DNA of 64,000 nucleotides, from positions 62,001 to 126,000 of the forward strand of contig NZ_JAAARM010000001.1 in assembly GCF_009908285.1 (NCBI RefSeq), given 5' to 3'. The stretch is from Pseudomonas sp. Fl4BN1. Its GTDB lineage: Bacteria > Pseudomonadota > Gammaproteobacteria > Pseudomonadales > Pseudomonadaceae. The notes under the pieces are model-generated. The model was not told the DNA's origin, searched no databases, and worked only from the letters and a program-made list of their open reading frames with translations. Positions 26,038-53,458 of this stretch are shown here, piece after piece; the first letter of the stretch is position 1; every line of letters begins with the position of its first letter. Made by a program: the position numbers and the translations under genes.

Positions 26038-26239
26038 CCGCTCTTGGTTGCAGCCCTTGATTCACGGGGGCTGGGACGATTCTTGCGGATCAAGTATTCC
26101 ATTTTGATCTATGTATAACTTGAAAGATTACTTTCAGAGATAAGCACGGCGCGCTGATCATTGGCCCCGCGGCACCGATGTGTGGGGGCAGTTGATACGC
26201 CGGTGCCGGGTTATTCAAAAGATCGTAGGGAGTAAATCC

Positions 26240-27055
26240 ATGGGCAATGTCCAGACCGCCGCCGGTGCACACGAGGTGCTGTGGCGCCAGGCACCGAGCG
26301 GCGAGTTGGTCGACCTCGGCCGGCCTCACCGCTTGCCGTTGGGCCAATCACGTCTGCAACGCACGCCCAAGGGCATATTGCGCCGTCGTGAGGCGATCCT
26401 CCTGGGGGTTGTTGCCCTGGTACTGCACGGTGCGGTGCTCTACTGGCTGAGCCAGAAGCCGACCCCGGTGCTGCCGATCGTGCCGCCGGAAATTCCGCCC
26501 ATGACCATCGAATTCTCGCGTCCGGCGCCACCCGTGGTCGAGCCGCCTCCACCGCAGCCGGTCCAGCCGGTGGTGGAGCCGCCGCCTCCAGTGGAGGACG
26601 AGTTGGCGGTGAAGCCGCCACCGCCCAAACCGGTGCCTAAACCCAAGCCCAAGCCGGTACCCAAGCCTGAGCCGAAACCGGCGCCCAAGCCGGTTCAGCA
26701 AACGCCCGCACCGTCAGTACCCGCCGCTCCGGTAGCGGCTCCAACAGCGCCTGCGCCACCGGCCCCGGCTCCGGTGACCCCGGCGTCCGCCAGCGCGGCG
26801 TACCTGAAGAACCCGGCGCCGGAATACCCGTCCCTGGCCCAGCGCCGAGGCTGGGAGGGCACGGTGCTGTTGCGGGTGCATGTGTTGGCCAGCGGCAAGC
26901 CGGGCGAGATCCAGATCCAGAAAAGCAGTGGTCGCCAGCAGCTTGATGATGCGGCCCTGGCCGCGGTCAAGCGCTGGAGTTTCGTACCGGCCAAGCAGGG
27001 TGACGTGGCCCAGGACGGCTGGGTCAGCGTACCCATCGATTTCAAGATTCATTGA
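26240..27055 (+). CDS. tonB: TonB energy transducer
   Basis: 271 residues. A cytoplasmic N-terminus of about 55 residues precedes one membrane helix (ILLGVVALVLHGAVLYWL), then a long Pro/Lys spacer with PPPPKPVPKPKPKP-type repeats, then the TonB C-terminal domain (PAPEYPSLAQRRGWEGTVLL in part, DDAALAAVKRWSFVPA). The extended N-terminus resembles P. aeruginosa TonB2 (tonB2-exbB1-exbD1). AGGGAG precedes the ATG at 26240; 26180 is an unsupported earlier start. It couples the proton gradient to receptors such as the SftP-like one. Confidence 0.93.
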   Translation: MGNVQTAAGAHEVLWRQAPSGELVDLGRPHRLPLGQSRLQRTPKGILRRREAILLGVVALVLHGAVLYWLSQKPTPVLPIVPPEIPPMTIEFSRPAPPVVEPPPPQPVQPVVEPPPPVEDELAVKPPPPKPVPKPKPKPVPKPEPKPAPKPVQQTPAPSVPAAPVAAPTAPAPPAPAPVTPASASAAYLKNPAPEYPSLAQRRGWEGTVLLRVHVLASGKPGEIQIQKSSGRQQLDDAALAAVKRWSFVPAKQGDVAQDGWVSVPIDFKIH

Positions 27056-27110
27056 GCCGCAAGGCCGATCAAATAACGCGCGCTAAACGCTTACACAGAG
27101 GGAACACATC

Positions 27111-27836
27111 ATGACGTTACTGGCATCTCCACTGGAATCCATCGAAAGCGCGGTGATCTGGCTGTTAGTGGTCTTCTCCGTCGCCACCTGGGGCCTGGCC
27201 CTGGTCAAGGGCGTGCAGTTCGCTCGCCTCAAGGTCCAGGATCGCAAGTTCCACAATCAGTTCTGGGCGGCCTCGAGTCTCGACTCTGCGGCCGCCTTGA
27301 GTGAAACCCAGCCTGGCGCAGCGGCGCGGGTGGCCCAGGCCGGCTACGCGGCGATCCAGGTGGGTGAAGCGCCCCAGGCGGCGGACCTGAGTCAGGCGAT
27401 CAACCACCAGGACCGTCTTGAACGTGCCCTGCGCCAACAGATCGTGCGTGAGCGTCGCTCCCTGGAAACCGGCTTGGCGGTGGTCGCCAGTATTGGCAGC
27501 ACCTCGCCCTTCATCGGCCTGTTCGGCACCGTGTGGGGGATCATGGAAGCCTTGAAAGGCATCAGCGCCGCAGGTTCGGCGAGCCTGGAAACCGTGGCCG
27601 GCCCGATTGGCGCAGCCCTGGTGGCTACCGGTGTGGGGATCGCCGTCGCGGTGCCTGCGGTGCTGGTTTACAACTACTTTTTACGCCGCCTGAAACTCAC
27701 CGTTGCCGACCTCGATGACTTTGCCCATGACTTCTACAGCCTGGCGCAGAAGAGCTCGTTCCGCGTGCTGATCCACCCGAGCGCGCACAAGGTTGCGGCC
27801 CAGGGCAGCGTGCAGAAAGTCAAGGAGGCGTCCTGA
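27111..27836 (+). CDS. exbB: TonB-system proton channel subunit ExbB
   Basis: 241 residues of the MotA/TolQ/ExbB family with three membrane helices at about 12-34, 125-150 and 165-190. The pore-lining signature is SIGSTSPFIGLFGTVWGIME. GAGGGAA lies before the ATG. Second gene of tonB-exbB-exbD; its stop is 1 bp from the exbD start. Confidence 0.95.
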   Translation: MTLLASPLESIESAVIWLLVVFSVATWGLALVKGVQFARLKVQDRKFHNQFWAASSLDSAAALSETQPGAAARVAQAGYAAIQVGEAPQAADLSQAINHQDRLERALRQQIVRERRSLETGLAVVASIGSTSPFIGLFGTVWGIMEALKGISAAGSASLETVAGPIGAALVATGVGIAVAVPAVLVYNYFLRRLKLTVADLDDFAHDFYSLAQKSSFRVLIHPSAHKVAAQGSVQKVKEAS

Positions 27837-27837
27837 T

Positions 27838-28239
27838 ATGGCCTTTTCAACCCAGGACAGCGATGAGGTGCTGAGCGAGATCAACGTCACGCCGCTGGTG
27901 GACGTGATGCTGGTGCTGCTGGTGGTGTTTATCGTCACCGCGCCGCTGCTGACCAACGCGATTCCGATCAACCTGCCCAAGACCGAGGCCGTGGCCCCGG
28001 TGGAGCAGAAGGATCCGCTGGTGGTGAGCATCGACGGTGCCGGCAAACTGTTTATCAACAAGGACGAGATCCAGCCGGACCTGCTGGAAACCAACTTGCA
28101 AGCGGCCAAGGCCAAGGACCCCGAAGTGCGGGTCCAGCTGCAGGCCGATGATGGGGTCAACTACGGGGAAGTGGCCCGGGCCATGGCGTCCATCGAGCGT
28201 GCGGGCATCACCAAACTGTCGGTGATCACCGCCCGCTGA
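27838..28239 (+). CDS. exbD: TonB-system subunit ExbD
   Basis: 133 residues with one N-terminal membrane helix bearing the essential aspartate: INVTPLVDVMLVLLVVFIV (Asp about residue 22). A periplasmic domain follows. AAGGAGG in the end of exbB serves as ribosome-binding site for the ATG at 27838. Together with ExbB it drives TonB. Confidence 0.95.
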   Translation: MAFSTQDSDEVLSEINVTPLVDVMLVLLVVFIVTAPLLTNAIPINLPKTEAVAPVEQKDPLVVSIDGAGKLFINKDEIQPDLLETNLQAAKAKDPEVRVQLQADDGVNYGEVARAMASIERAGITKLSVITAR

Positions 28240-28576: not shown

Positions 28577-29158
28577 ATGCGCAACGCATCCATTCGCTAC
28601 TTGATTGTGCCGGGCTGGCAAGGATCGCCAGAAGATCATTGGCAAACCCACTGGCAGAACAGCCTGCCCAACAGTGCGCGGGTGGAGCAGGCCGACTGGC
28701 TGACGCCGCGCCGTGAAGACTGGGTGGCGGCCCTGGCCGAAGCCATCGCCGCCGATGACACGCCGGTGATCCTGATTGCCCACAGCCTGGGCTGCGTCAC
28801 CGTGGCCCATTGGGCGGCTCGCGCGCCCGTGGCAGCGTTGCGCCAGGTGCGCGGTGCCTTGCTGGTGGCGCCGGCGGATGTCGAGCGTGCGGCCTGTGCG
28901 CCGGCGCTGCGCAACTTCGCACCGATCCCCCGGGACTTGCTGCCCTTTCCCAGCCAGGTGGTCAGCTCCGATAACGACAGCGCCGTGAGCGCGCCACGGG
29001 CCATGGAGCTGGCCCGTGATTGGGGCGCTGAAGCGGGGATTCTGGCGGGCGCCGGGCACATCAACGTCAAGTCTGGCCACCATCGCTGGGAACAGGGTTT
29101 CGCCTATCTCTATCGTCTGCAGAACCGCATGGAACAACACGCCCTGCGCCGTGCCTGA
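28577..29158 (+). CDS. RBBP9/YdeN-type alpha/beta serine hydrolase
   Basis: 193 residues. YLIVPGWQGSPEDHWQTHW at the N-terminus and the nucleophile elbow AHSLGC (Ser near residue 75) mark the Ser_hydrolase family (PF06821); later acid and base are probably in SDNDSAVS and GHINVKSG. The substrate is unknown. AGGAGGG gives a strong start at 28577. The next gene is a sigma-54 activator-like protein 57 bp away. The upstream TATTCC motif suggests sulfur-starvation expression (inference). Confidence 0.88.
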   Translation: MRNASIRYLIVPGWQGSPEDHWQTHWQNSLPNSARVEQADWLTPRREDWVAALAEAIAADDTPVILIAHSLGCVTVAHWAARAPVAALRQVRGALLVAPADVERAACAPALRNFAPIPRDLLPFPSQVVSSDNDSAVSAPRAMELARDWGAEAGILAGAGHINVKSGHHRWEQGFAYLYRLQNRMEQHALRRA

Positions 29159-29215: not shown

Positions 29216-30148
29216 ATGAGCCCTCATACCCCTTTCGGTCAGCCGTTGCTGACCTTTCCCGATGCCGAGAAAAGCCCCCTGAGCATCCGTGCCAAGGCAC
29301 TGGTGTTCGTCGACCCGCGTTCACGGCAACTGCGTGAAGAGCTGGAACAACTGGCGCCGCGCTCGATCTCGGTGCTGATCCGCGGCGAAACCGGCACCGG
29401 CAAGGAACTGCTGGCGCGGCATATCCACCGTGCCAGCGACCGCGGCGGGTTATTTGTCTCGGTCAACTGCGGCGCCATCAGCCCGACCTACGCCGACGCC
29501 GAGCTGTTCGGTTATGCCGCCGGCAGTTTCAGCGGCTCCGCCAGCAGCCGCGCCGGCTGGTTCGGTTCGGCCAATGGCGGGACCCTGTACCTGGACGAAA
29601 TCGGCGACCTGCCGCTGCCGATCCAGACCAAGTTGCTGGCGGCCCTGGAGAACCATGAAGTGACCCGGGTTGGTGCCCAGCAACCGAGCCCGGTGGACGT
29701 GCGCCTGGTGGCAGCCACCAGCATCGACCTGGCCCAGGCGGTGGCGGCGGGCAAGTTTCATCAGCGCCTGTACCGCTATCTCAGCGAAGGCCAGCTGGAG
29801 TTGCCGGCGCTGCGTGAGCGGGTGGGCGACATCGAGTCGTTGGCCGAGTACTTCCTGGGCATCTACAGCCAGCGCCTGGAACTGCCGGTGCCGCTGATCA
29901 GCGAAGCTGCGCAGCAGGCCCTGGATCGCCACAGTTGGCCGGGCAACACCCGGGAGCTGGAGAACGTCATTCACTTTGCCCTGCTGGTCAGTAGTGGCGA
30001 GGAGATCCTGCCGGAGCACCTCAACCTGCCGCCGACCCCTTCGCCGCTGGAGCAGATTCAGCAATTGCTGGAGCAGATTGTCCAGAGTGGTTCGGCGGGG
30101 GAGCGCCATGCCCTGCAACAACTGCTGCAGCGCACCGGCTTGTCCTGA
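29216..30148 (+). CDS. Degenerate sigma-54 activator-like AAA+ protein lacking a DNA-binding domain
   Basis: 310 residues, almost only an AAA+ domain of the enhancer-binding protein family (closest in feel to SfnR). Walker A GETGTGKE (near residue 60) and Walker B GGTLYLDEIGDLPLP are intact. But the sigma-54 contact motif GAFTGA reads GSFSGS, and the arginine-finger segment, normally FRxDLxxRL, reads FHQRLYRYL, so both usual arginines are displaced. There is no N-terminal sensor domain. The C-terminus ends ALQQLLQRTGLS without the Fis-type HTH. It may be a modulator or a decaying gene. It lies just before an eight-unit REP array. Confidence 0.8.
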   Translation: MSPHTPFGQPLLTFPDAEKSPLSIRAKALVFVDPRSRQLREELEQLAPRSISVLIRGETGTGKELLARHIHRASDRGGLFVSVNCGAISPTYADAELFGYAAGSFSGSASSRAGWFGSANGGTLYLDEIGDLPLPIQTKLLAALENHEVTRVGAQQPSPVDVRLVAATSIDLAQAVAAGKFHQRLYRYLSEGQLELPALRERVGDIESLAEYFLGIYSQRLELPVPLISEAAQQALDRHSWPGNTRELENVIHFALLVSSGEEILPEHLNLPPTPSPLEQIQQLLEQIVQSGSAGERHALQQLLQRTGLS

Positions 30149-30188
30149 CCCCACCTCCTCCTACACACGACCATTTCAGATCCGGCCC

Positions 30189-31011
30189 GTAGGAGCTGGC
30201 TTGCCAGCGAAGGCGCGCGTGGGGGCGATGCAAGGCCTGAGGGCCTCTTCGCCGGCAAGCCGGCTCCTACACATGACCATTTCAGATCTGGCCCGTAGGA
30301 GCTGGCTTGCCAGCGAAGGCGTTCGTGAGGGCGATGCAGGGCTTGAGGGCCTCTTCGCCGGCAAGCCGGCTCCTACACACGACCATTTCAGATCCGGCCC
30401 GTAGGAGCTGGCTTGCCAGCGAAGGCATTCGTGAGGGGCGATGCAGGGCTTGAGGGCCTCTTCGCCGGCAAGCCGGCTCCTACACACGACCATTTCAGAT
30501 CCGGCCCGTAGGAGCTGGCTTGCCAGCGAAGGCATTCGTGAGGGCGATGCAGGGCTTGAGGGCCTCTTCGCCGGCAAGCCGGCTCCTACACATGACCATT
30601 TCAGATCCGGCCCGTAGGAGCTGGCTTGCCAGCGAAGGCATTCGTGAGGGCGATGCAGGGCTTGAGGGCCTCTTCGCCGGCAAGCCGGCTCCTACACACA
30701 ACCATTTCAGATCCGGCCCGTAGGAGCTGGCTTGCCAGCGAAGGCGTTCGTGAGGGCGATGCAGGGCTTGAGGGCCTCTTCGCCGGCAAGCCGGCTCCTA
30801 CACACGACCATTTCAGATCCGGCCCGTAGGAGCTGGCTTGCCAGCGAAGGCGTTCGTGGGGGCGATGCAAGGCCTGAGGGCCTCTTCGCCGGCAAGCCGG
30901 CTCCTACACATGACCATTTCAGATCCGGTCCGTAGGAGCTGGCTTGCCAGCGAAGGCGTTCGTGAGGGCGATGCAGGGCTTGAGGGCCTCTTCGCCGGCA
31001 AGCCGGCTCCT
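30189..31011. repeat. REP doublet array C, 8 tandem units
   Basis: Units start at 30189, 30295, 30401, 30508, 30614, 30720, 30826 and 30932, a period of 106 bp. Every unit has both arms and the same spacer, CGACCATTTCAGATCCGGCC, with few substitutions. The last unit ends in GGCTCCTGG instead of GGCTCCTAC. The array occupies nearly the entire gap between the AAA+ gene and the MetQ-like gene; the remaining 200 bp are AT-rich promoter sequence. Confidence 0.97.
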
Positions 31012-31104: not shown

Positions 31105-31209
31105 AAAATCTCGGTATTGTCCGCTTCACGCCAGCAGTGGCACATCACTGGCACCCTGATAAGCACCTCATTTGAAGCCGTCGTCGATTCCGACACTTAA
31201 GGACCTTGC

Positions 31210-31992
31210 ATGAAAAAAGTTCTGTTGTTCACCGCACTGGCGGCAGCTCTGAGCGCCGGCATCGCCCAAGCCGGCGAGAAGCTGGTGGTCGCCGCGACCC
31301 CGGTGCCCCACGCCGAGATCCTTGAGCTGATCAAGCCAACCCTGGCCAAGGAAGGCGTGGACCTGGAAATCAAGGTCTTCACCGACTACGTGCAACCCAA
31401 CGTACAGGTCGACCAGAAGCGTCTGGATGCCAACTACTTCCAGACCCTGCCGTACCTCAAGAGCTTCAACGAAGGCAAAGGCACTCACTTGGTGACCGTG
31501 ATCGGCGTGCACGTCGAACCCTTCGGCGGCTACTCGAAGAAAGTCAAAACCCTGGCCGAGCTGAAAGACGGCGCGACCATTGCCATCCCCAACGAAGGCA
31601 GCAACAGCGGCCGTGCCCTGATCCTGTTGCAGAAGGCAGGCCTGATCGAGCTCAAGGACCCGAAGAACGCCGTCGCCACGCCCAAGGACATCGCCAAGAA
31701 CCCGCACAACTTCAAGTTCAAGGAACTTGAGTCGGCCATGCTGCCACGGGTCCTGGACCAGGTTGACCTGGACATGATCAACACCAACTACGCCCTGGAA
31801 GCCGGTCTGAACCCGGCGAAGGATGCGCTGATCATCGAAGGTTCCGATTCGCCTTACGTGAACTACCTGGTGGCCCGTCCGGACAACAAGGACAGCCCGG
31901 CGATCCAGAAGCTGGCGAAGGCCTTGACCAGCCCTGAGGTGAAAGCCTTCATCGAGAAAAAGTACAGCGGTGCGGTACTGCCAGCGTTTTGA
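31210..31992 (+). CDS. MetQ/NlpA-family substrate-binding protein (orphan)
   Basis: 260 residues. A signal peptide MKKVLLFTALAAALSAGIAQ-A is cleaved before GEKLVVAATPVPH; there is no lipobox cysteine, unlike classical MetQ lipoproteins. Family marks include KPTLAKEGVDLEIKVFTDYV (in part), IAIPNEGSNSGRALILLQ and DMINTNYALEAGL. It would bind D/L-methionine or a related organosulfur compound. AAGGA precedes the ATG. No MetN/MetI gene adjoins it; the nearest set is at 43834-46403. An intrinsic terminator closes the single-gene unit. Confidence 0.9.
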   Translation: MKKVLLFTALAAALSAGIAQAGEKLVVAATPVPHAEILELIKPTLAKEGVDLEIKVFTDYVQPNVQVDQKRLDANYFQTLPYLKSFNEGKGTHLVTVIGVHVEPFGGYSKKVKTLAELKDGATIAIPNEGSNSGRALILLQKAGLIELKDPKNAVATPKDIAKNPHNFKFKELESAMLPRVLDQVDLDMINTNYALEAGLNPAKDALIIEGSDSPYVNYLVARPDNKDSPAIQKLAKALTSPEVKAFIEKKYSGAVLPAF

Positions 31993-45593: not shown

Positions 45594-46403
45594 TCAACCT
45601 TCCCAGCCGGCTTGGTAGAGCTTGCCGTGAGCCTGGTCCAGGGCGGCGCGCACGGCCGGCGAATGCTGGTAGATATCGACGAACTTGATCAGCCGCGGGT
45701 CGTTCTTGCTCTTGGGCTGGATCACGAACTGGATCACGTATTCCTTGTGGTCCAGGCCGTCGAACAGCAAGGCTGAACCGGCATCGAAGGTCTTGGCCAG
45801 GCGGATGTAGGCCGGGTAGCCCTGGACCAGGTCGGCGTCGTCATAGGCGCGTACCAGTTGCACGGCTTCCACTTGGAGGATCTTGATCTTCTTCGGGTTG
45901 GCGACGATGTCTTCTTCGGTGGCCTTGTAGCCGACCCCGGGCTTGAGGGTGATCAGCCCGGCCTTGGCCAGCAGTTGCAGGCCGCGCCCGCTGTTGATCG
46001 GGTCGTTGGCGATGGCCACGCTGGCGCCGACTGGCAGCTCGTCGAAACTTTTGTATTTCTTCGAGTACAGGCCGACGTTGTTGATGATGCCCGGGGCGAA
46101 GGGCACCAGGTCGAAACCGGCGGCGGCCTTGGCGTTTTCCAGGAAGGGAATGTGCTGGAAGTAGTTCACGTCGATGTCGCCGGCGGCCAGGCTGACGTTG
46201 GGCGCGATCCAGTCGGTGAACTCCACCAGCTCGACCTTCAGGCCCTGTTTACCGGCTTCGACGACGGCGGCTTCCAGGGGGATGGCGAAGGCCGCGGTGG
46301 TGCCGACCTTGAGCGGCGCATCGGCGGCGAAGACGGCGCTGCTGAACAGGCCGAGGGCGAGGGCCAGGGCTTTGACCGGGTGGCGCAGGCGTGTGGTTTT
46401 CAT
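45594..46403 (-). CDS. metQ: Methionine-type ABC substrate-binding protein MetQ
   Basis: 269 residues. Signal peptide [20 protein letters not shown] ending [10 protein letters not shown]; no lipobox. NlpA/MetQ marks: [20 protein letters not shown] (in part), [20 protein letters not shown] and [15 protein letters not shown]. First gene of metQ-metN-metI and directly downstream of the flavin monooxygenase gene, with REP halves between. In sulfur loci such importers often take up sulfonates, sulfones or methionine derivatives; ligand unproven. A frame to 46466 reads into a REP and is rejected. Confidence 0.9.
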
Positions 46404-46455
46404 GTGGGTCAGGGTCCAGGTCGGGGCGAGGGAATGGGCAGGTTGTGCTGGCCTC

Positions 46456-46510
46456 TTCGCTGGCAAGCCAGCGCCTACAGGAGCGTGTAGGAGCCGGCTT
46501 GCCGGCGAAG
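46456..46510. repeat. REP doublet, compact
   Basis: GCTGGCAAGCCAGCGCCTAC and GTAGGAGCCGGCTTGCCGGC back to back with about 7 bp between, in the reverse order to most doublets here. Confidence 0.9.
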
Positions 46511-46513
46511 CTG

Positions 46514-47869
46514 TTAGCGGCGGTAAGCCGCTCCGGTGTGTTGTTCGGGCAGCTTGCGGTCCTGGCGAAAGAGCTTTTCGCGCAGGGTGCCCTGGTCGTA
46601 GGCGGTCTTGTACGAGCCCCGGCGTTGCAGCTCCGGGATCACCAGATCGATGAAGTCGACATAGCTTTCCGGGGTGACGATGCGGGTCAGGTTGAAGCCG
46701 TCCAGGCCGGTTTCGGCAATCCAGGATTCCAGCTCATCGGCCACCTGTTGCGGTGATCCGACCACGGTGAAGTAGCGGCCGCCCAGGGCGTGCTGGTCCA
46801 GCAGCTTGCGCCGGGTCCAGTCGTTGTTCTGCAGGTTCTTGGTGGCCGATTGGATCGCGTTGCTCTTCACGTACTGGATCGGCTCGTCGATCTCGTACTG
46901 GGCGAAATCGATCCCGGTGGAGGCGGAGAAATGCGCCACACCGGCTTCGGCGCTGGCATGACTGCGATACTCGGCGTGTTTCTTCCAGGCCAGCTCCTCG
47001 GTCGCGGCGACGATCACGTTGAGCCCCATGAACACCTTGATGTCCTCAGGGTTGCGCCCGGCGGCCACGGCGCTGGCGCGGACCTTGTCCACCTGGGCCT
47101 TGGTCGCGGCCTTGTTCTGCCCGCTGATGAACACGCACTCGGCGTGGCGCCCGGCGAACACCAGGCCGCGGTCCGAGCTGCCGGCCTGGAACAGCACCGG
47201 GGTGCGTTGCGGCGACGGCTCGCACAGGTGATAACCGCTGACCTGGTAGAACTCGCCCTGGTGCTCGACCTTGTGCACCTTGTCCGGTTGGGCGTAGATG
47301 CGCTGCTCGCGGTCGTTGATCACCGCGTCGTCTTCCCAGCTGCCTTCCCAGAGTTTGTACAGCACCTCCAGGTACTCGTCGGCCTGGTCGTAGCGGCGGT
47401 CGTGTTCGATCTGCTGCTTGAGGCCCATGGCCTGGGCGGCGCTGTCCAGGTAGCCGGTGACGATGTTCCAGCCGACCCGGCCACGGCTCAGGTGATCGAG
47501 GGTGGAGAGGCGTCGGGCGAACAGGTACGGCGCTTCGTAAGTGAGGTTGGCGGTCAGGCCGAAGCCGAGGTTCCTGGTCACCGCGGCCATGGCCGAGACC
47601 AGCAGCAGCGGGTCGTTGACCGGTAGTTGGATCGACTCCTTGAGCGTCACGTCCAGGGAGTTCTGGTAGACGTCGTAGACCCCGACGATGTCGGCGATGA
47701 ACAGCCCGTCGAACAGCCCGCGTTCCAGCAACTGGGCCAGCTCGGTCCAGTATTCGATGGTCTGGTACTGGGTCGAGGTGTCCCGTGGGTGAGTCCACAG
47801 GCCGTGGTTGATATGACCGACGCAGTTCATGTTGAAGGCGTTGAGCAGGATCTTCTTTTTCGCGGCCAT
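46514..47869 (-). CDS. FMN-dependent monooxygenase, NtaA/SnaA/DszA family
   Basis: 451 residues. Two-component luciferase-like monooxygenase: KILLNAFNMNCVGHINHGLW at the start, LARRLSTLDHLSRGRVGWNIVTG as flavin-binding core (in part: LDHLSRGRVGWNIV), VLFQAGSSDRGLVFA and the C-terminal RRGSYKTAYDQGTLREKLF. Related enzymes oxidise sulfones, DMS or nitrilotriacetate using FMNH2 from a separate reductase, which is not encoded nearby. Start at 47869 shares bases with the stop of the upstream sfnB gene (TGATG). A likely C-S bond-cleaving step in sulfur acquisition. Confidence 0.9.
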   Translation of the reverse strand: MAAKKKILLNAFNMNCVGHINHGLWTHPRDTSTQYQTIEYWTELAQLLERGLFDGLFIADIVGVYDVYQNSLDVTLKESIQLPVNDPLLLVSAMAAVTRNLGFGLTANLTYEAPYLFARRLSTLDHLSRGRVGWNIVTGYLDSAAQAMGLKQQIEHDRRYDQADEYLEVLYKLWEGSWEDDAVINDREQRIYAQPDKVHKVEHQGEFYQVSGYHLCEPSPQRTPVLFQAGSSDRGLVFAGRHAECVFISGQNKAATKAQVDKVRASAVAAGRNPEDIKVFMGLNVIVAATEELAWKKHAEYRSHASAEAGVAHFSASTGIDFAQYEIDEPIQYVKSNAIQSATKNLQNNDWTRRKLLDQHALGGRYFTVVGSPQQVADELESWIAETGLDGFNLTRIVTPESYVDFIDLVIPELQRRGSYKTAYDQGTLREKLFRQDRKLPEQHTGAAYRR

Positions 47870-49062
47870 CAAATAGTCCCCCGCAACGGCGGGTTGGTCT
47901 GGTTCAGGTAGTAGTTGCCCACCGCGTGGTACTTCCAGCGCACCGGGTCGTGCAGGGTGTGTACCCGGGCGTTGCGCCAGTGGCGGTCCAGGCCGTGCTC
48001 GGCCAGGGTCGCCTGGCTGCCCGCCAGTTCGAACAGGGTGCTGCCGGCGGCCAGGGAAATTTCCGTGCTCAGGGCGCGGACTTCGGCCACGGCGATGGAG
48101 GCGGCGGCCACGGTGTCGGCGTTGCTGTCGGCTTGGGCTGCGTCGAGGAATTCACCGGCGCGTTCCAGCAGCGCTTCGGTGGCGTGCAGGCGGATGCTCA
48201 GGTGGCCGAAGCTCTTGATCGTCAGCGGGTCGGCGGTGGCCTGCTCCAGGCCGGAGTCGATCCAGGGCCGGGTCTTGGTGCGCACAAAGTGCAGGGCGTC
48301 CTCGTAGGCGGCGCGGGCAATGCCGGTGTCGATGGCCGCGTGAAGGATCTGCGCCAGGGGGCCAACCGTGGTCGGGCGCTCGAAGGCGCTCTGGAACGGC
48401 ACCACGTCGTCGGCGTCCACCCACACATTTTCGAACAGCACCGAGCCGCTGCCGGTGGTGCGCTGGCCGAAGCCGCTCCAGTCGTCGATCACGCTCAGGC
48501 CCTGGCTGTCCGCGGGGACGAAGGCCAGTTGCAGCACGCCGTATTCATCCACCACCGATGTCGGGATGCGTTGGGCGTAGATCGCTCCGGTGGCGTAGAA
48601 CTTGCGCCCGTCGATGCGGTAGCCATCGCCGTCACGGCTCAGGCGGGTGGTGCGGTCGTGGGCGGTCTTGGTGCCCAGCTCGGCCAGGGCGTTGCCGAAG
48701 CGCCGGCCGGCGAGGACTTCGGCGTACAGGCGTTGTTTCTGCTGCGGGCTGCCATTCACCCGCAGTACTTCGAGGGCATAGAAATGGTTCTGCGGGATCT
48801 GCCCCAGGGAGGCGTCGGCCTGGGCGATCAGGGCGATGACCTTGGCCAGGGTGACATTGGAGACACCGGCGCCGCCGTATTCCCTGGGCACGCTGATGCC
48901 CCACAGGCCGGAGCGCGAGAAGGCTTCCAGTTCCGGGTGTGGCAGGCGCCGCTCGCGGTCGCGCAGGGCACTGTCGCGTTGGAAATCTTCCGCCAGGTCG
49001 CTGGCGACAATCAGGGCTTGTTCATCGCTGGTGATGACCGCGACGTGTTGAGAAAGGCTCAT
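47869..49062 (-). CDS. sfnB: SfnB-family sulfur acquisition oxidoreductase, copy 1
   Basis: 397 residues, acyl-CoA dehydrogenase fold of the DszC/SfnB branch. GLWGISVPREYGGAGVSNVT, DDWSGFGQRTTGSGSVLFEN and the C-terminal DRHWRNARVHTLHDPVRWKY are hallmarks; the last one replaces the usual acyl-CoA dehydrogenase ending. Probably uses reduced flavin and oxygen. GGAG before ATG. Paralogous to the next gene upstream (49087-50328) along the whole length, so a tandem duplication. Confidence 0.9.
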   Translation of the reverse strand: MSLSQHVAVITSDEQALIVASDLAEDFQRDSALRDRERRLPHPELEAFSRSGLWGISVPREYGGAGVSNVTLAKVIALIAQADASLGQIPQNHFYALEVLRVNGSPQQKQRLYAEVLAGRRFGNALAELGTKTAHDRTTRLSRDGDGYRIDGRKFYATGAIYAQRIPTSVVDEYGVLQLAFVPADSQGLSVIDDWSGFGQRTTGSGSVLFENVWVDADDVVPFQSAFERPTTVGPLAQILHAAIDTGIARAAYEDALHFVRTKTRPWIDSGLEQATADPLTIKSFGHLSIRLHATEALLERAGEFLDAAQADSNADTVAAASIAVAEVRALSTEISLAAGSTLFELAGSQATLAEHGLDRHWRNARVHTLHDPVRWKYHAVGNYYLNQTNPPLRGTI

Positions 49063-49086
49063 GTGTTTCTCCAGAGGTCTGGTCGG

Positions 49087-50328
49087 TTAAATCCAGGAAT
49101 GACGAGCAGGCAAAGTGCCGTTCAGGTGATAGGCGCCGACGGCGTGGTACTTCCAGCGCACTGGATCGTGCAGCGTATGCACCCGGGCGTTGCGCCAGTG
49201 TCGGTCGAGGTTGAATTCGGCGAGGGTGGCGCGGCTGCCGGCCAGCTCGAAGAGTTTTTCGCTGGCCAGCAGCGAGATCTCGGTGGTCAGCACCTTGGCT
49301 TCGGCCACGGCGATGGAGGCGCGGGCCGCGGACTCGGCGGTGATCGGCGCTGAGCTGACCTGGTCCAGCACCTGGCCAGCCTTGCGCAGCAGGGCCTCGG
49401 CGGCGTGCAGTTCGATCTGCAGCTTGCCGATGTCGGCGATCACATACAGGTCGTCGCTGGCCCGCTCGACGTTGGCATCGATCCACGGCCGGGCGCGTTC
49501 CCGGACAAAGGCGATGGCGTCGGCCACGGCTTCCCGGGCGATGCCGGCGTCGATGGCGGCCTGGATCAGTTGCGACACGGCGCCCTGGATATTCGGCGTG
49601 TCGTTGATCCGCCAGTTATCCAGCACCAGCTCGGACTCGACCCGCACACTGTTGAGCAGGATGGTGCCGCTGGCGGTGGTGCGCTGGCCGAAGCCCGACC
49701 AGTCATCGACGATGCGTAAACCCTGGGTGCCGCGGCGGACGAAGGCCAGCACCTGGCGGCCGTCATCGTTGAGTGCCTTGACCGCTACCCAGTGGGCGAA
49801 CAGGGCGCCGGTGGAGTAGAACTTCTGGCCATTGATCACATGGCCCTCGGCGTCGGCGGTGATCCGCGCCTTGAGTTCCAGGGTGTTCTTGGTGCCGCGT
49901 TCCGGGCCGGCATTGCCGATGCGCCAGCCTTCCAGCACGCTCTGCAACAGTTGTTTTTTCTGCCGCTCGGTGCCGCAGCCGAGAATCAGGCCGAGGATAC
50001 CGAACTGGTTCTGCGGGATCTGGCCCAGGGCTGGGTCCGCCGCGGAAATGATCGCGAAGACTTCGGCCAGGGTGACGAAGGAAACCTGTGGCCCGCCGTA
50101 GGCGCGGGGAATGGAAATACTGCCTAGGCCGCTGCGGGTGAACTGTTCGATCTGCGCCCACGGCAGCTTGCGCTGACGGTCACGTTGGGCGGCTTGCTGG
50201 CGAGCAACGTCCGCCAGTTCATGGGCGGCCTGAAGGGCTTCGGCGTCGTTGCGCAGAACCCGTGCGGGCAACAAAAGGGGAGCAATATCCAGGTCACTCT
50301 GGACCTGAGCTTCGACCAGACTGGACAT
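49087..50328 (-). CDS. sfnB: SfnB-family sulfur acquisition oxidoreductase, copy 2
   Basis: 413 residues, same family as the adjacent copy: GLGSISIPRAYGGPQVSFVT, DDWSGFGQRTTASGTILLNS and DRHWRNARVHTLHDPVRWKY. It has about 15 extra N-terminal residues. The start at 50328 has AAGGAG 8 bp away. It is first in a run of six minus-strand genes (sfnB, sfnB, monooxygenase, metQ, metN, metI), and a shared sulfur-controlled promoter upstream is likely (motif at 50506). Confidence 0.9.
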   Translation of the reverse strand: MSSLVEAQVQSDLDIAPLLLPARVLRNDAEALQAAHELADVARQQAAQRDRQRKLPWAQIEQFTRSGLGSISIPRAYGGPQVSFVTLAEVFAIISAADPALGQIPQNQFGILGLILGCGTERQKKQLLQSVLEGWRIGNAGPERGTKNTLELKARITADAEGHVINGQKFYSTGALFAHWVAVKALNDDGRQVLAFVRRGTQGLRIVDDWSGFGQRTTASGTILLNSVRVESELVLDNWRINDTPNIQGAVSQLIQAAIDAGIAREAVADAIAFVRERARPWIDANVERASDDLYVIADIGKLQIELHAAEALLRKAGQVLDQVSSAPITAESAARASIAVAEAKVLTTEISLLASEKLFELAGSRATLAEFNLDRHWRNARVHTLHDPVRWKYHAVGAYHLNGTLPARHSWI

Positions 50329-50505
50329 CAGCGCCACTCCTTGGCTGCACGCAATGCCCTGGCGATCTGCACTGGGGTGATTGTGTTCCGGACCATACCT
50401 ACCTCACATCTCATGGATATGCCGCGTTCGTGCGGCGAAATCAGAATCAAGAATGTCCGGTGGTCCGGTGCATATACCCTATGCGCGTATAAAAATTAAA
50501 TAAAC

Positions 50506-50523
50506 TAACTTTTAGGAATATCA
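50506..50523. promoter_or_regulatory. GGAATA-type AT-rich motif upstream of the sfnB operon
   Basis: TAACTTTTAGGAATATCA, closely matching the site in the sftR/sftP gap (12780-12798). It sits about 180 bp before the first sfnB start, in a run of AT-rich sequence (50485-50525). Confidence 0.45.
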
Positions 50524-50628
50524 ATAGAAGGGTTGAATTGGAGCCCGCAGGCGTTATGGATCAAGGCCTTAGGTGGCTTGAGCGGGCACTGATTGAGTGA
50601 CGAACGCCCCTGGCATTTCGTTGGTCGG

Positions 50629-51059
50629 GTAGGAGCTGGCTTGCCAGCGAAGACGTCCGTGAGGGCGATGCAAGGCTTGCGGCCTCTTCGCCGGCAAGCC
50701 GGCTCCTACGGGGGGGTGGTGTGGCGAAGGGAGGAACATCAGCTGATGTAGGAGCTGGCTTGCCAGCGAAGGCGTCCGTGAGGGCGATGCAAGGCTTGCA
50801 GGCCTCTTCGCCGGCAAGCCGGCTCCTACGGGGGTGTGGTGTGGCGAAGGGAGGAACATCAGCTGTTGTAGGAGCTGGCTTGCCAGCGAAGACGGCCGTG
50901 AGGGCGATGCAAGGCTTGCAGGCCTTTTCGCCGGCAAGCCGGCTCCTACGGGGGGGGCGAAGGGAGGAACATCAGCTGTAGGAGCTGGCTTGCCAGCGAA
51001 GACGGCCGTGAGGGCGATGCAAGGCTTGCAGGCCTCTTCGCCGGCCAGCCGGCTCCTAC
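50629..51059. repeat. REP doublet array E, 4 tandem units
   Basis: Units start at 50629, 50748, 50868 and 50978 (periods 119, 120 and 110). The spacer GAAGGGAGGAACATCAGCTG is private to this array. The last right arm ends on the tcyN stop codon. Confidence 0.96.
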
Positions 51060-51814
51060 AAGGCGTGGCCGGGGTGGAGAAACTTGCTCAGGAACTGTCG
51101 CGTGCGCTCTTGCTGAGGGTTGGCGAACAGCGCCTTGGCTTCGCCCTGTTCGACGATCACCCCCTTGTCGAAGAAGATCACCCGGTTGGCCACGTCCCGG
51201 GCGAAGCTCATCTCGTGGGTGACGATGACCATGGTGCGTTTCTCTTCGGCCAGGCTGCGGATGGTGGCCAGCACTTCACCCACTAGCTCGGGGTCGAGGG
51301 CCGAGGTGGGTTCGTCGAACAGGATCACCCCAGGCTCCATGGCCAGGGCCCGGGCAATCGCCACCCGCTGTTGCTGGCCACCGGACAGGCGCCTCGGGTA
51401 GGCGTCTTCCTTGCCCGCCAGGCCGACCTTGGCCAGCAGCGCGCGACCCAGGGCGATGGCTTGTTCGCGTGGGGTTTTCTTCACCACCAGCGGGCCTTCG
51501 ATGACGTTCTCCAGGGCGGTGCGGTGGGGGAACAGGTTGAAGTTCTGGAACACGAAACCCACTTGCTGGCGCAACTGGCGTATCCGGCTTTGTTGCTGGT
51601 TGAGGGGGATGCTGCTGTCGATGGCAATGTCGCCGATCCTGATCCGCCCGCTGGTAGGTTCTTCCAGAAAGTTGAGGCAACGCAGGAAGGTGGTCTTGCC
51701 CGAGCCGCTGGGGCCGATGATGGCAACCACTTCGCCTTCCTTGACCTCCAGGTCGATGCCGTTGAGTACGGTCTGGCCCTTGAACTGCTTGGTCAGTTTT
51801 TCCACCACAATCAT
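51056..51814 (-). CDS. tcyN: L-cystine ABC transporter ATP-binding protein TcyN
   Basis: 252 residues: Walker [10 protein letters not shown], signature LSGGQQQR, Walker [19 protein letters not shown] switch. GlnQ-like group used by cystine importers (YecC/TcyN). The ATG at 51814 follows AGGAG in the end of the permease gene; 51835 is a less likely start. Its stop codon TAG is provided by the first arm (in reverse) of the adjoining REP array. Confidence 0.9.
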
Positions 51815-51818
51815 GGCT

Positions 51819-52484
51819 TCAAGACTCCTGGTCATGCCGATTGACCCGCTCTTCCAGACGGTTCTGCAGGTGCGCGAGCACGCTGGCGAGAATCCAGTAG
51901 ATCAGCGCGGCGGCAAGATACATGGTGAAGATTTCGAAGGTGCGCGCGGTGATCAGCTGCGCTTGGCGGAACAGTTCCGGTACCTGGATCGTGGCGGCCA
52001 GGGCCGTGTCCTTGACCAGTGAAATGAAGCTGTTGCCCAGCGGCGGCAGAGCGGTGCGCATGGCTTGTGGCAGGATCGCCCGGCGCAGGGTCTGGGCTCG
52101 GGTCATGCCGATGCTGGCGGCGGCTTCCCATTGGCCGCGCTCGATGGAACCGATGGCGGCCCTGAGGATTTCACAGGCGTAGGCCGCCATGTTCAGGGAA
52201 AAGCCGATCAGCGCTGCGGGCAACGGGTCCAGTTCCAGCCCCAGTTGCGGCAGGCCGTAGTAGATCACGAAGAGTTGCACCAGCAGCGGCGTGCCGCGAA
52301 AGAACGACACGTAGACCCGGGCAATCCAGCTCACCAGCCTCAGGTGCGACAGGCGCATCAAGGCCAGGCCGAAGCCCAGCAGCAGTCCGAAGAACATGCC
52401 GCCAAGGCTGAGGATGACCGTGTAATACGCGCCCTTGAGGAGAAATGGCGCTGAATCCAGCGCCAGTTGCAGGCCTGCTTCCAT
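51819..52484 (-). CDS. tcyL: L-cystine ABC transporter permease TcyL
   Basis: 221 residues, HisM-type permease with five helices: YVSFFRGTPLLVQLFVIYYG, QWEAAASIGMTRAQTLRRAI and the loop PQAMRTALPPLGNSFISLVK. Its start overlaps the tcyJ stop (TAATG). Middle gene of tcyJ-tcyL-tcyN. Confidence 0.9.
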   Translation of the reverse strand: MEAGLQLALDSAPFLLKGAYYTVILSLGGMFFGLLLGFGLALMRLSHLRLVSWIARVYVSFFRGTPLLVQLFVIYYGLPQLGLELDPLPAALIGFSLNMAAYACEILRAAIGSIERGQWEAAASIGMTRAQTLRRAILPQAMRTALPPLGNSFISLVKDTALAATIQVPELFRQAQLITARTFEIFTMYLAAALIYWILASVLAHLQNRLEERVNRHDQES

Positions 52485-53281
52485 TACTGGGTGACGTCAG
52501 CGTTGAAGTATTTCTCCGAGAGCTTTTTCAGCGTGCCGTCGGCCCGCAGTTCCTCGATCGCTTTGTTCACCGCGGCCAGCAGTTCAGGTTCGCCCTTGCG
52601 CAGGGCCACACCGGCTTCCTGGCGGGAGAAGGGTTCGCCGGATACCACCAGGGTGTCCTTGGTCTTCTTGATCAGCTCGAAGGCTGCCAGGCGGTCCACC
52701 AGGATCGCGTCGATACGGCCTACGCGCAGGTCCTGGTACTTGGTCGGATCATCGTCGTAGGTCTTGATGATGGCGCTGGGGACGTTGTCCTTGAGCCATT
52801 GCTCGTAGTTGGTGCCCAGGCCGACACCGACCTTGTGGCCACCCAGGTCGGCGGCAGTCTTGAACTTGCCGTCATCCTTCTTCTGGGTCAGGGCCTGGAT
52901 CCCGGAGACGGTGTAGGGGATGGAGAAATCGTACTTTTTCTTGCGCTCTTCAGAGATGGTCACCTGGTTGACGACCGCGTCCAGGCGCTTGGACTCCAGG
53001 GCTGCGAGAATGCCGTCCCACTTGGTCGGTTGCAGCTTGACCTTGACCCCGAGCTTGTTCGCCAGGGCTTCTGAGAACTCCACTTCGAAGCCGGCCAGCT
53101 TGCCGTTTTCATCGACGAAGCTGAACGGTGGATAGGTGCCTTCCAGGCCAACGTTGATCACTCCCGCATCCTTGATTTTCTGCAGTTGCTCGCCGGCAAC
53201 CGCTTGCCCCATCAATCCGGCACCGAGGGCCAGGCCCAGTGTGCCGATCAGCAGATTTCGACGCAGTACGGAAAAATTCAT
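52484..53281 (-). CDS. tcyJ: L-cystine-binding protein TcyJ (FliY)
   Basis: 265 residues, SBP_bac_3 fold. Signal peptide MNFSVLRRNLLIGTLGLALG ending QAVAGEQ. Mature part: INVGLEGTYPPFSFVDENGK, VKLQPTKWDGILAALESKRLD (in part), VVNQVTISEERKKKYDFSIP and YQDLRVGRIDAILVDR, all as in E. coli FliY/TcyJ. The start at 53281 follows AGGGGC. Delivers cystine to TcyL/TcyN; the neighbouring D-cysteine desulfhydrase gene is the usual companion. Confidence 0.93.
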   Translation of the reverse strand: MNFSVLRRNLLIGTLGLALGAGLMGQAVAGEQLQKIKDAGVINVGLEGTYPPFSFVDENGKLAGFEVEFSEALANKLGVKVKLQPTKWDGILAALESKRLDAVVNQVTISEERKKKYDFSIPYTVSGIQALTQKKDDGKFKTAADLGGHKVGVGLGTNYEQWLKDNVPSAIIKTYDDDPTKYQDLRVGRIDAILVDRLAAFELIKKTKDTLVVSGEPFSRQEAGVALRKGEPELLAAVNKAIEELRADGTLKKLSEKYFNADVTQ

Positions 53282-53458
53282 GACAAGCCCCTGTGATTTC
53301 TTATGCACGATGCGGGTGGGAGATGCAGGCCAATCGGTGAGCCGAAAGTAACGCTTTATCCTGCCTTAAATGCAGCTTATGCGCCTCATGGCAAATGAGC
53401 CTGCGGCGCGACTATAAAGTGATGTTTATAGGTTTAAAAATAATATAAATTAACGTTG

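Follow-up and report, generated by a model that had tools for sequence, protein, structure and literature searches.

A conserved AAA+ protein of the sigma-54 activator fold without HTH or arginine fingers, encoded beside a serine hydrolase gene in Pseudomonas

Gene, domains and neighbours of P

The window analysed here is a stretch of 64,000 nucleotides (contig NZ_JAAARM010000001.1, positions 62,001 to 126,000) from the 7.33-Mb genome of Pseudomonas sp. Fl4BN1. At 29216..30148, its forward strand carries an open reading frame with an ATG start that encodes P, a 310-residue AAA+ protein of the sigma-54 activator fold, 94% identical to the protein of P. protegens FD6 and 93% identical to that of Pseudomonas sp. 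LD120 (both close). Pfam assigns residues 33-194 to the Sigma54_activat domain (PF00158, E 3.2e-55) and residues 200-270 to AAA_lid_14 (E 8.8e-20); no HTH family was found by Pfam in the window protein, and the stop codon lies 40 residues past the lid. Among 25 of the 29 NCBIfam families listed, no equivalog cut-off was reached. The predicted structure (pLDDT 85.3, pTM 0.77) matches the AAA+ domains of sigma-54 activators, best that of FlrC (6luf; Z 28.2, rmsd 2.2 over 243 residues), and such a match of a model speaks for the fold, not for function.

Near its N-terminus, P has an SfnR-type stretch (residues 11-32; 29246..29311), followed by an intact Walker A motif, GETGTGKE (residues 57-64; 29384..29407), and an intact Walker B motif, LYLDEI (residues 124-129; 29585..29602). 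Between them, the GAFTGA slot reads GSFSGS (residues 103-108; 29522..29539). In the sensor I region, ATS (residues 167-169; 29714..29722), a serine occupies the Asn/His position, and the arginine-finger region, FHQRLYRYL (residues 181-189; 29756..29782), has lost both fingers. The lid (29813..30025) keeps the sensor II residue Arg246. The tail (residues 271-310; 30026..30145) is without the recognition HTH: in alignment it corresponds to the linker and helix 1 of the Fis domain in SfnR and in a related group, S2, with no recognition helix, and it forms two predicted helices in the model. The anatomy given in the preliminary description of this gene, namely, an AAA-only protein with intact Walker motifs, altered GAFTGA and finger regions and no HTH, is confirmed.

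That description missed the partner gene of P and the sulfur setting of the locus. Directly 5' of P on the same strand (28577..29158) lies the gene for H, a 193-residue protein of the Ser_hydrolase family that is its constant upstream partner. H is preceded by TonB-ExbB-ExbD genes (26180..28239, forward strand), of which ExbD was named from sequence and position, and P is followed by a gene for a MetQ/NlpA lipoprotein (31210..31992, forward strand), a frequent downstream neighbour present in 77 of the 80 named loci. Sulfur-type genes within the window comprise sulfatase-like, TauD-like, SfnB, FMN monooxygenase, TcyN and MetQ genes. An organosulfur cluster occupies 45594-53308 on the reverse strand, with an NtaA/DmoA-type FMN monooxygenase, SfnB and TcyN and, as judged by eye, further MetQ/MetN-like and TcyJL-like genes. 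Between P and MetQ, a 106-base unit is repeated eight times in tandem (30158-31011; 96% matches), and it carries an intergenic repeat of the GTAGGAGCTGGCTTGCCAGC type.

Distribution, ancestry and selection

P is present in 135 of the 149 Pseudomonas genomes searched (134 in which P was located, plus G096, in which a contig end truncates it); the search scored part of the candidates per genome (e.g., 15 of 42), and two P-less genomes, G041 and G082, gave one weak match each (~1e-61). A family survey of 198 genomes added 69 further copies in 11 other genera. In an order-wide scan of 145 genomes at E <= 1e-90, four genomes matched, all of them Pseudomonadaceae, and no P was found outside this family. 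The protein set used below comprises 143 distinct sequences (148 rows minus five duplicates), including L094, truncated at the end of a contig. L031, the same as the window, and five HTH-bearing paralogues had been removed before deduplication.

The extracted P proteins are HTH-less throughout, with lengths of 268-329 residues (median 309; below 290 in 16 of the 143), whereas SfnR-like controls are longer (341-367 residues, n=33). Pfam found an HTH in none of 52 P orthologues; among five HTH-bearing relatives, four gave an HTH match at E <= 0.01, and one of those four exceeded the curated cut-off. Because this Pfam control is weak, length and alignment are the stronger evidence for HTH loss. 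The SfnR-like proteins (the genome's own L006, L181) share with P the N-terminal S-IRA-LVF-DP stretch, the absence of a receiver domain and the same AAA+ core; unlike P, they keep GAFTGA, both fingers, the sensor I Asn and a C-terminal extension, which in L181 gives a weak HTH match. The closest HTH-bearing relative is the S2 group (L163, L167, L183, L184), which is 51-58% identical to the window P over the best segment. In contrast to P, S2 proteins keep G[AS]FSGA, the equivalents of R162 and R168 and the C-terminal extension, with an HTH_8 match in three of the four, one of them above the curated cut-off. In L183, the S2 gene lies beside alkanesulfonate-monooxygenase-like genes.

In the tree, P forms one clade (support 100/100) that is sister to the S2 group (P plus S2, 100/95; P, S2 and SfnR together, 97/99). 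P is therefore not an SfnR orthologue: it is a separate clade next to S2, and SfnR is another branch. The root was placed at the midpoint for drawing only, and one badly cut slice, E_L018, forms a very long branch outside the compared groups. A single clade fits a single event for the loss of the HTH and the fingers; the one finger arginine found in P, in L170, lies deep inside the clade on a long branch. The proposed history is that an SfnR-type activator would have lost its HTH and both finger arginines early in the Pseudomonadaceae and kept a conserved nucleotide pocket. G222 has a second P copy (L174, G222:C1:2467066-2475875) that adjoins a TauD gene and is not near H; its grouping with L148 in the tree points to a transfer or an old duplicate.

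P is under purifying selection. Among loci below L141, 2500 pairs were drawn at random and the 909 with dS of 0.05-0.9 were used (Nei-Gojobori; L127, with its internal stop, left out), giving dN/dS values of 0.094 for the whole gene and 0.041 for the AAA core. In particular, residues 11-32 are the most constrained part (0.011) and the finger region, at 0.022, is by this measure conserved in its new form; the tail, at 0.409, is the loosest part given. The clean reading frame had been taken earlier as a sign of selection, and these ratios bear that out. Another earlier proposal was that the gene is decaying with its fold preserved. In favour of decay are L127, whose variable tail is broken by an in-frame stop (the AAA core ahead of it being intact), the nine H-bearing genomes without P near H and the high dN/dS of the tail; against it stand the ratios for the whole gene and the core and the fixation of identical derived residues in 142-143 of the 143 proteins, across 12 genera. 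Decay is rejected on these two grounds, and its probability is practically negligible. Nor do the orthologues keep GAFTGA and an HTH, or dN/dS lie near 1, either of which would have marked this copy as merely degraded: the extracted orthologues share the loss of HTH and fingers.

Nucleotide pocket, arginine fingers and GAFTGA slot

Residue numbers of P in the active-site region equal those of PspF plus 20 (E128 of P being E108), and the PspF names R162, N149, N64, F85 and T86 are used for the matching positions. PspF E108 and R168 are named in the available part of PMC7175178. The nucleotide pocket is conserved: Lys63 of Walker A, Glu128 of Walker B and Arg246 of sensor II occur in 143 of 143 P proteins and Asp127 in 142, and the switch Asn is kept in 125 and replaced by Ser in 18. 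The suggestion in the preliminary description that P acts as a nucleotide-dependent switch fits these conserved Walker motifs.

The arginine fingers, in contrast to the pocket, are gone. The R162 equivalent is His in 103 P proteins, Asn in 17, Asp in 15, Ser in five, Leu in two, Tyr in one and Arg in none; the R168 equivalent is Tyr in 142 and Arg in one, so that both arginines are absent in 142 of the 143 proteins and one is absent in the remaining protein. Arg/Arg is found in 37 of 37 controls (33 SfnR-like and four S2) and in every one of the 25 remaining full-strength PF00158 matches that this genome encodes; two SfnR-like proteins belong to both sets. The fixation of Tyr at R168 across the family is notable because PspF has been built as an R168A mutant (title of PDB 2bjv). 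The exception, L170, reads FNRDLFERL in this region, with Asn at the R162 position, an odd GAFTGA slot and a long branch inside P.

At sensor I, Ser169 is found in 143 of 143 P proteins versus Asn in 37 of 37 SfnR and S2 proteins; the evidence here is weaker, as the position varies among 23 other activators that this genome encodes (including His in 13, Asn in five, Lys in three and Ser in one). Eleven positions are fixed differently in P and in SfnR/S2, and for five of these (Gly117, Tyr125, Ile170, Tyr188 and Thr245) the P residue occurs in no other activator of this genome. P has also given up positions 92, 105, 125, 142, 182, 184 and 188, which SfnR and at least 80% of the remaining activators keep.

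The GAFTGA slot behaves differently. All substitutions that separate GSFSGS from GAFTGA are found in validated activators according to the available text of Francke et al. 2011 (PMC3162934), and the slot of the window P taken alone therefore does not prove that sigma-54 contact is lost. In the family, however, the slot is loose: 46 motifs occur in 143 P proteins versus three in 37 controls, Phe is replaced by His in 37 P proteins, and dN/dS of the slot is 0.216 versus 0.041 for the AAA core. It follows that the sigma-54 loop is under relaxed constraint, with the ATP pocket still conserved. Thus, the altered motif, which the preliminary description had taken as a mark of altered function, loses weight for this copy and gains weight for the family.

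These residues bear on the view that P is a working HTH-less sigma-54 activator that would act from solution in the way reported for FlgR, CtcC and FleT. Activators without an HTH, or without both outer domains, are listed in the part of PMC3162934 that was available. By the tolerance rules of the same source, likewise seen in excerpt, GSFSGS passes and so do the motifs of 84 of the 143 P proteins, with Gly103 kept in 138 and Gly107 in 134; contact of P with sigma-54 could therefore still occur. The other 59 motifs fall outside the rules, and the lack of Arg at the R162 position in every P protein and at the R168 position in all but one makes such an activator highly improbable. The likeness of P to FleT of Rhodobacter sphaeroides, a bEBP of type Ic, is one of domain make-up, that is, AAA+ only, with neither sensor domain nor HTH (PMC3162934, in the portion available); the fingers of P are gone. 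FleT acts with FleQ at sigma-54 promoters (PMC9542535, excerpt); no second activator adjoining P was noticed in the fetched loci, whose flanks were read by eye.

Alternatively, P might be a sigma-54-independent sensor of a nucleotide or second messenger, comparable to VpsR or TyrR, with no ATP turnover and no contact with H. The bEBP homologues TyrR, DhaR and HupR, whose GAFTGA is altered, work with sigma-70 according to the accessible sections of PMC3162934. VpsR is among the structural matches of the P model (Z 26.1), and the title of its PDB entry names c-di-GMP binding. Moreover, a GGDEF gene precedes P in six of 38 divergent loci. VpsR, TyrR, DhaR and HupR keep a DNA-binding domain. P, unlike these sensor-type proteins, is without one, and a sensor of this kind is considered rather improbable.

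The hydrolase partner, the sulfur setting and a possible role

H matches PF06821 at 2.3e-68 and the DUF1234 structure 3bdv at 1.4e-23; this relative is titled as uncharacterized in the PDB. We take H to be of the RBBP9/YdeN type. Ser70 (124 of 124 aligned), Asp134 and His161 (both 125 of 125) are conserved among 125 H rows and presumably form the catalytic triad. In all 135 copies located in the genus (134 genomes), P follows H immediately and in the same orientation, with a gap of 14-216 bases (median 70), and in the named loci H comes immediately before P in 80 of 80. H is present in 144 of the 149 Pseudomonas genomes, including all 135 with P (G096 among them). In the other nine H-bearing genomes, no P remnant was found in the fetched flanks of H. 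The five remaining P-less genomes have no H at >=60% identity, G082 having a distant match only. Because H is near-universal in the genus, co-occurrence with P is by itself weak evidence, and the adjacency of the two genes may be plain inheritance. No H match was found in the fetched flanks of S2, and the pairing with H also sets P apart from the SfnR-like proteins.

For the 69 P copies from other genera, the genome always contains H as well, and in 45 the two genes are adjacent. In genus g9, one of 24 P copies adjoins H, and in the five of these 24 loci that were fetched, P lies downstream of MetQ instead; linkage to H is therefore not needed everywhere. With H and P apart in g9, H follows MetQ-TonB-ExbB-ExbD (L229) or lies beside sulfate transporter genes (L230).

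A gene for sulfur uptake or assimilation was found in the fetched flank of 37 of 38 divergent P loci, a count without random-locus background; the exception is L162. These divergent loci (L141-L180) were hand-picked from the matches listed rather than drawn at random, and the fetched flanks span 2.5-4 kb. The flanks, in which example proteins were checked by Pfam and NCBIfam, show several arrangements: a divergent Sbp-CysT-CysW, CysW-CysA upstream, MetQ, SfnB-like/SsuA-like genes and TauD. In g9, the gene order is CydA-MetQ-(Cys/Met PLP enzyme)-P-(BCCT). It matches the order on the PAO1 map, cioAB-PA3931-PA3932-betT3, and PA3932 of P. aeruginosa is therefore probably the P orthologue; the H gene of that species would be PA0201. 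In a PA2504 mutant, PA3931 and PA3932 are down together with the sulphur regulon, as stated in the available part of PMC8466066. An excerpt of PMC10256816 names 'sfnR, AAA domain family protein' as down-regulated, which could be P or SfnR.

The chief rival to a role with H is heteromeric tuning of bEBPs: P would be inserted in the rings of intact activators that serve the sulfur regulon, such as SfnR or S2, where its site may borrow the fingers of one neighbour and give none onward, so that hydrolysis is tuned or blocked. SfnR is known in a sulfur setting from papers available in part. Hetero-oligomeric bEBPs are known (HrpR/HrpS, FleQ/FleT and VnfA1/VnfA3; PMC9542535 and PMC4145663, both in excerpt). 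HrpR/HrpS of Pseudomonas syringae, which like P is without an N-terminal domain, offers the model for P in such rings; unlike P, HrpR and HrpS keep HTH motifs and together form a functional activator (PMC4145663, same excerpt). The place of P within the SfnR group in the tree and its conserved nucleotide pocket also agree with heteromeric tuning.

Counts of SfnR point both ways. Of 91 SfnR-bearing genomes, 90 have P, and 13 of 14 P-less genomes are without SfnR (Fisher p 1.8e-5, uncorrected for relatedness). On the other hand, 45 of the 135 P genomes have no SfnR-like match at 1e-130 and, among the candidates scored, 34 of 135 have no other SfnR-type match at 1e-60, the count being repeated at this level because the 1e-130 cut-off lies near the scores of the L006 type. 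P therefore does not need SfnR, and SfnR is rarely without P. SfnR as an obligate target of P is not supported, and neither, as a general function, is the dominant modulator of SfnR envisaged earlier; of that interpretation as a whole, selection has stood, and decay and a general role on SfnR have not. Given the 90 of 91 SfnR-bearing genomes with P, P may still act on SfnR in some species. In addition, it is H and not a bEBP that constantly accompanies P within the genus. On balance, heteromeric tuning is judged unlikely.

The conserved nucleotide pocket, the absence of fingers and of DNA binding, the strong selection and the ties to H and sulfur genes together argue for P as a fixed pseudo-activator that works by protein contact, a nucleotide-dependent regulator acting with H in sulfur acquisition, a reading to which we give a probability of about 0.4. 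A P homo-oligomer would bind ATP and would not hydrolyse it by the usual trans mechanism, and P would be unlikely to remodel sigma-54 polymerase; the loss of ATPase activity is what we infer from the missing fingers. Contact with H is presumed, and control may run either way: P could serve H as an adaptor, an inhibitor or an allosteric switch, or might itself be acted on by H. A bolder and more doubtful proposal is that H and P form an undescribed sulfur-limitation module of the Pseudomonadaceae, in which the AAA+ motor of an activator might have been re-used as a nucleotide-gated hydrolase switch and a bEBP taken out of transcription. Neither the HTH-less, finger-less group nor the H-P pair is described in the literature found; the supplementary defective-GAFTGA list of PMC3162934, a source available in part, may hold an entry.

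Roughly nine in ten surveyed genomes of the genus carry P, which, going by its Pfam domain, would be called a sigma-54 activator. The anatomy of P argues against this label, probably also for PA3932. Should P work with neither ATP turnover nor DNA, it would be an example from nature of a bEBP that has become a pseudo-enzyme regulator, and it would offer an entry to the role of H in sulfur scavenging. P also provides a natural test for bEBP residues that are needed for binding nucleotide and for nothing else.

Sigma-54 sites were sought in the DNA around the pair. Before H, none was found in 79 loci at <=1 mismatch (~0.6 expected), which is neutral for the pseudo-activator reading. Before MetQ, a sigma-54-like site occurs in five of 79 loci versus ~0.4 expected; across the whole window, 81 matches were counted where 102 were expected. 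The window has a -24/-12-like site, TGGCAC-N5-TGGCA (31138-31153), 72 bases before MetQ, and L061, L062 and L075 have it as well. Among the matches listed, the window and these three loci, close relatives, make up four of the five, and the pre-MetQ site is at best lineage-specific. The GGDEF genes mentioned above lie on the same strand as H-P, ahead of the pair, in L146, L153, L154 (PAS-GGDEF), L158, L162 and L172.
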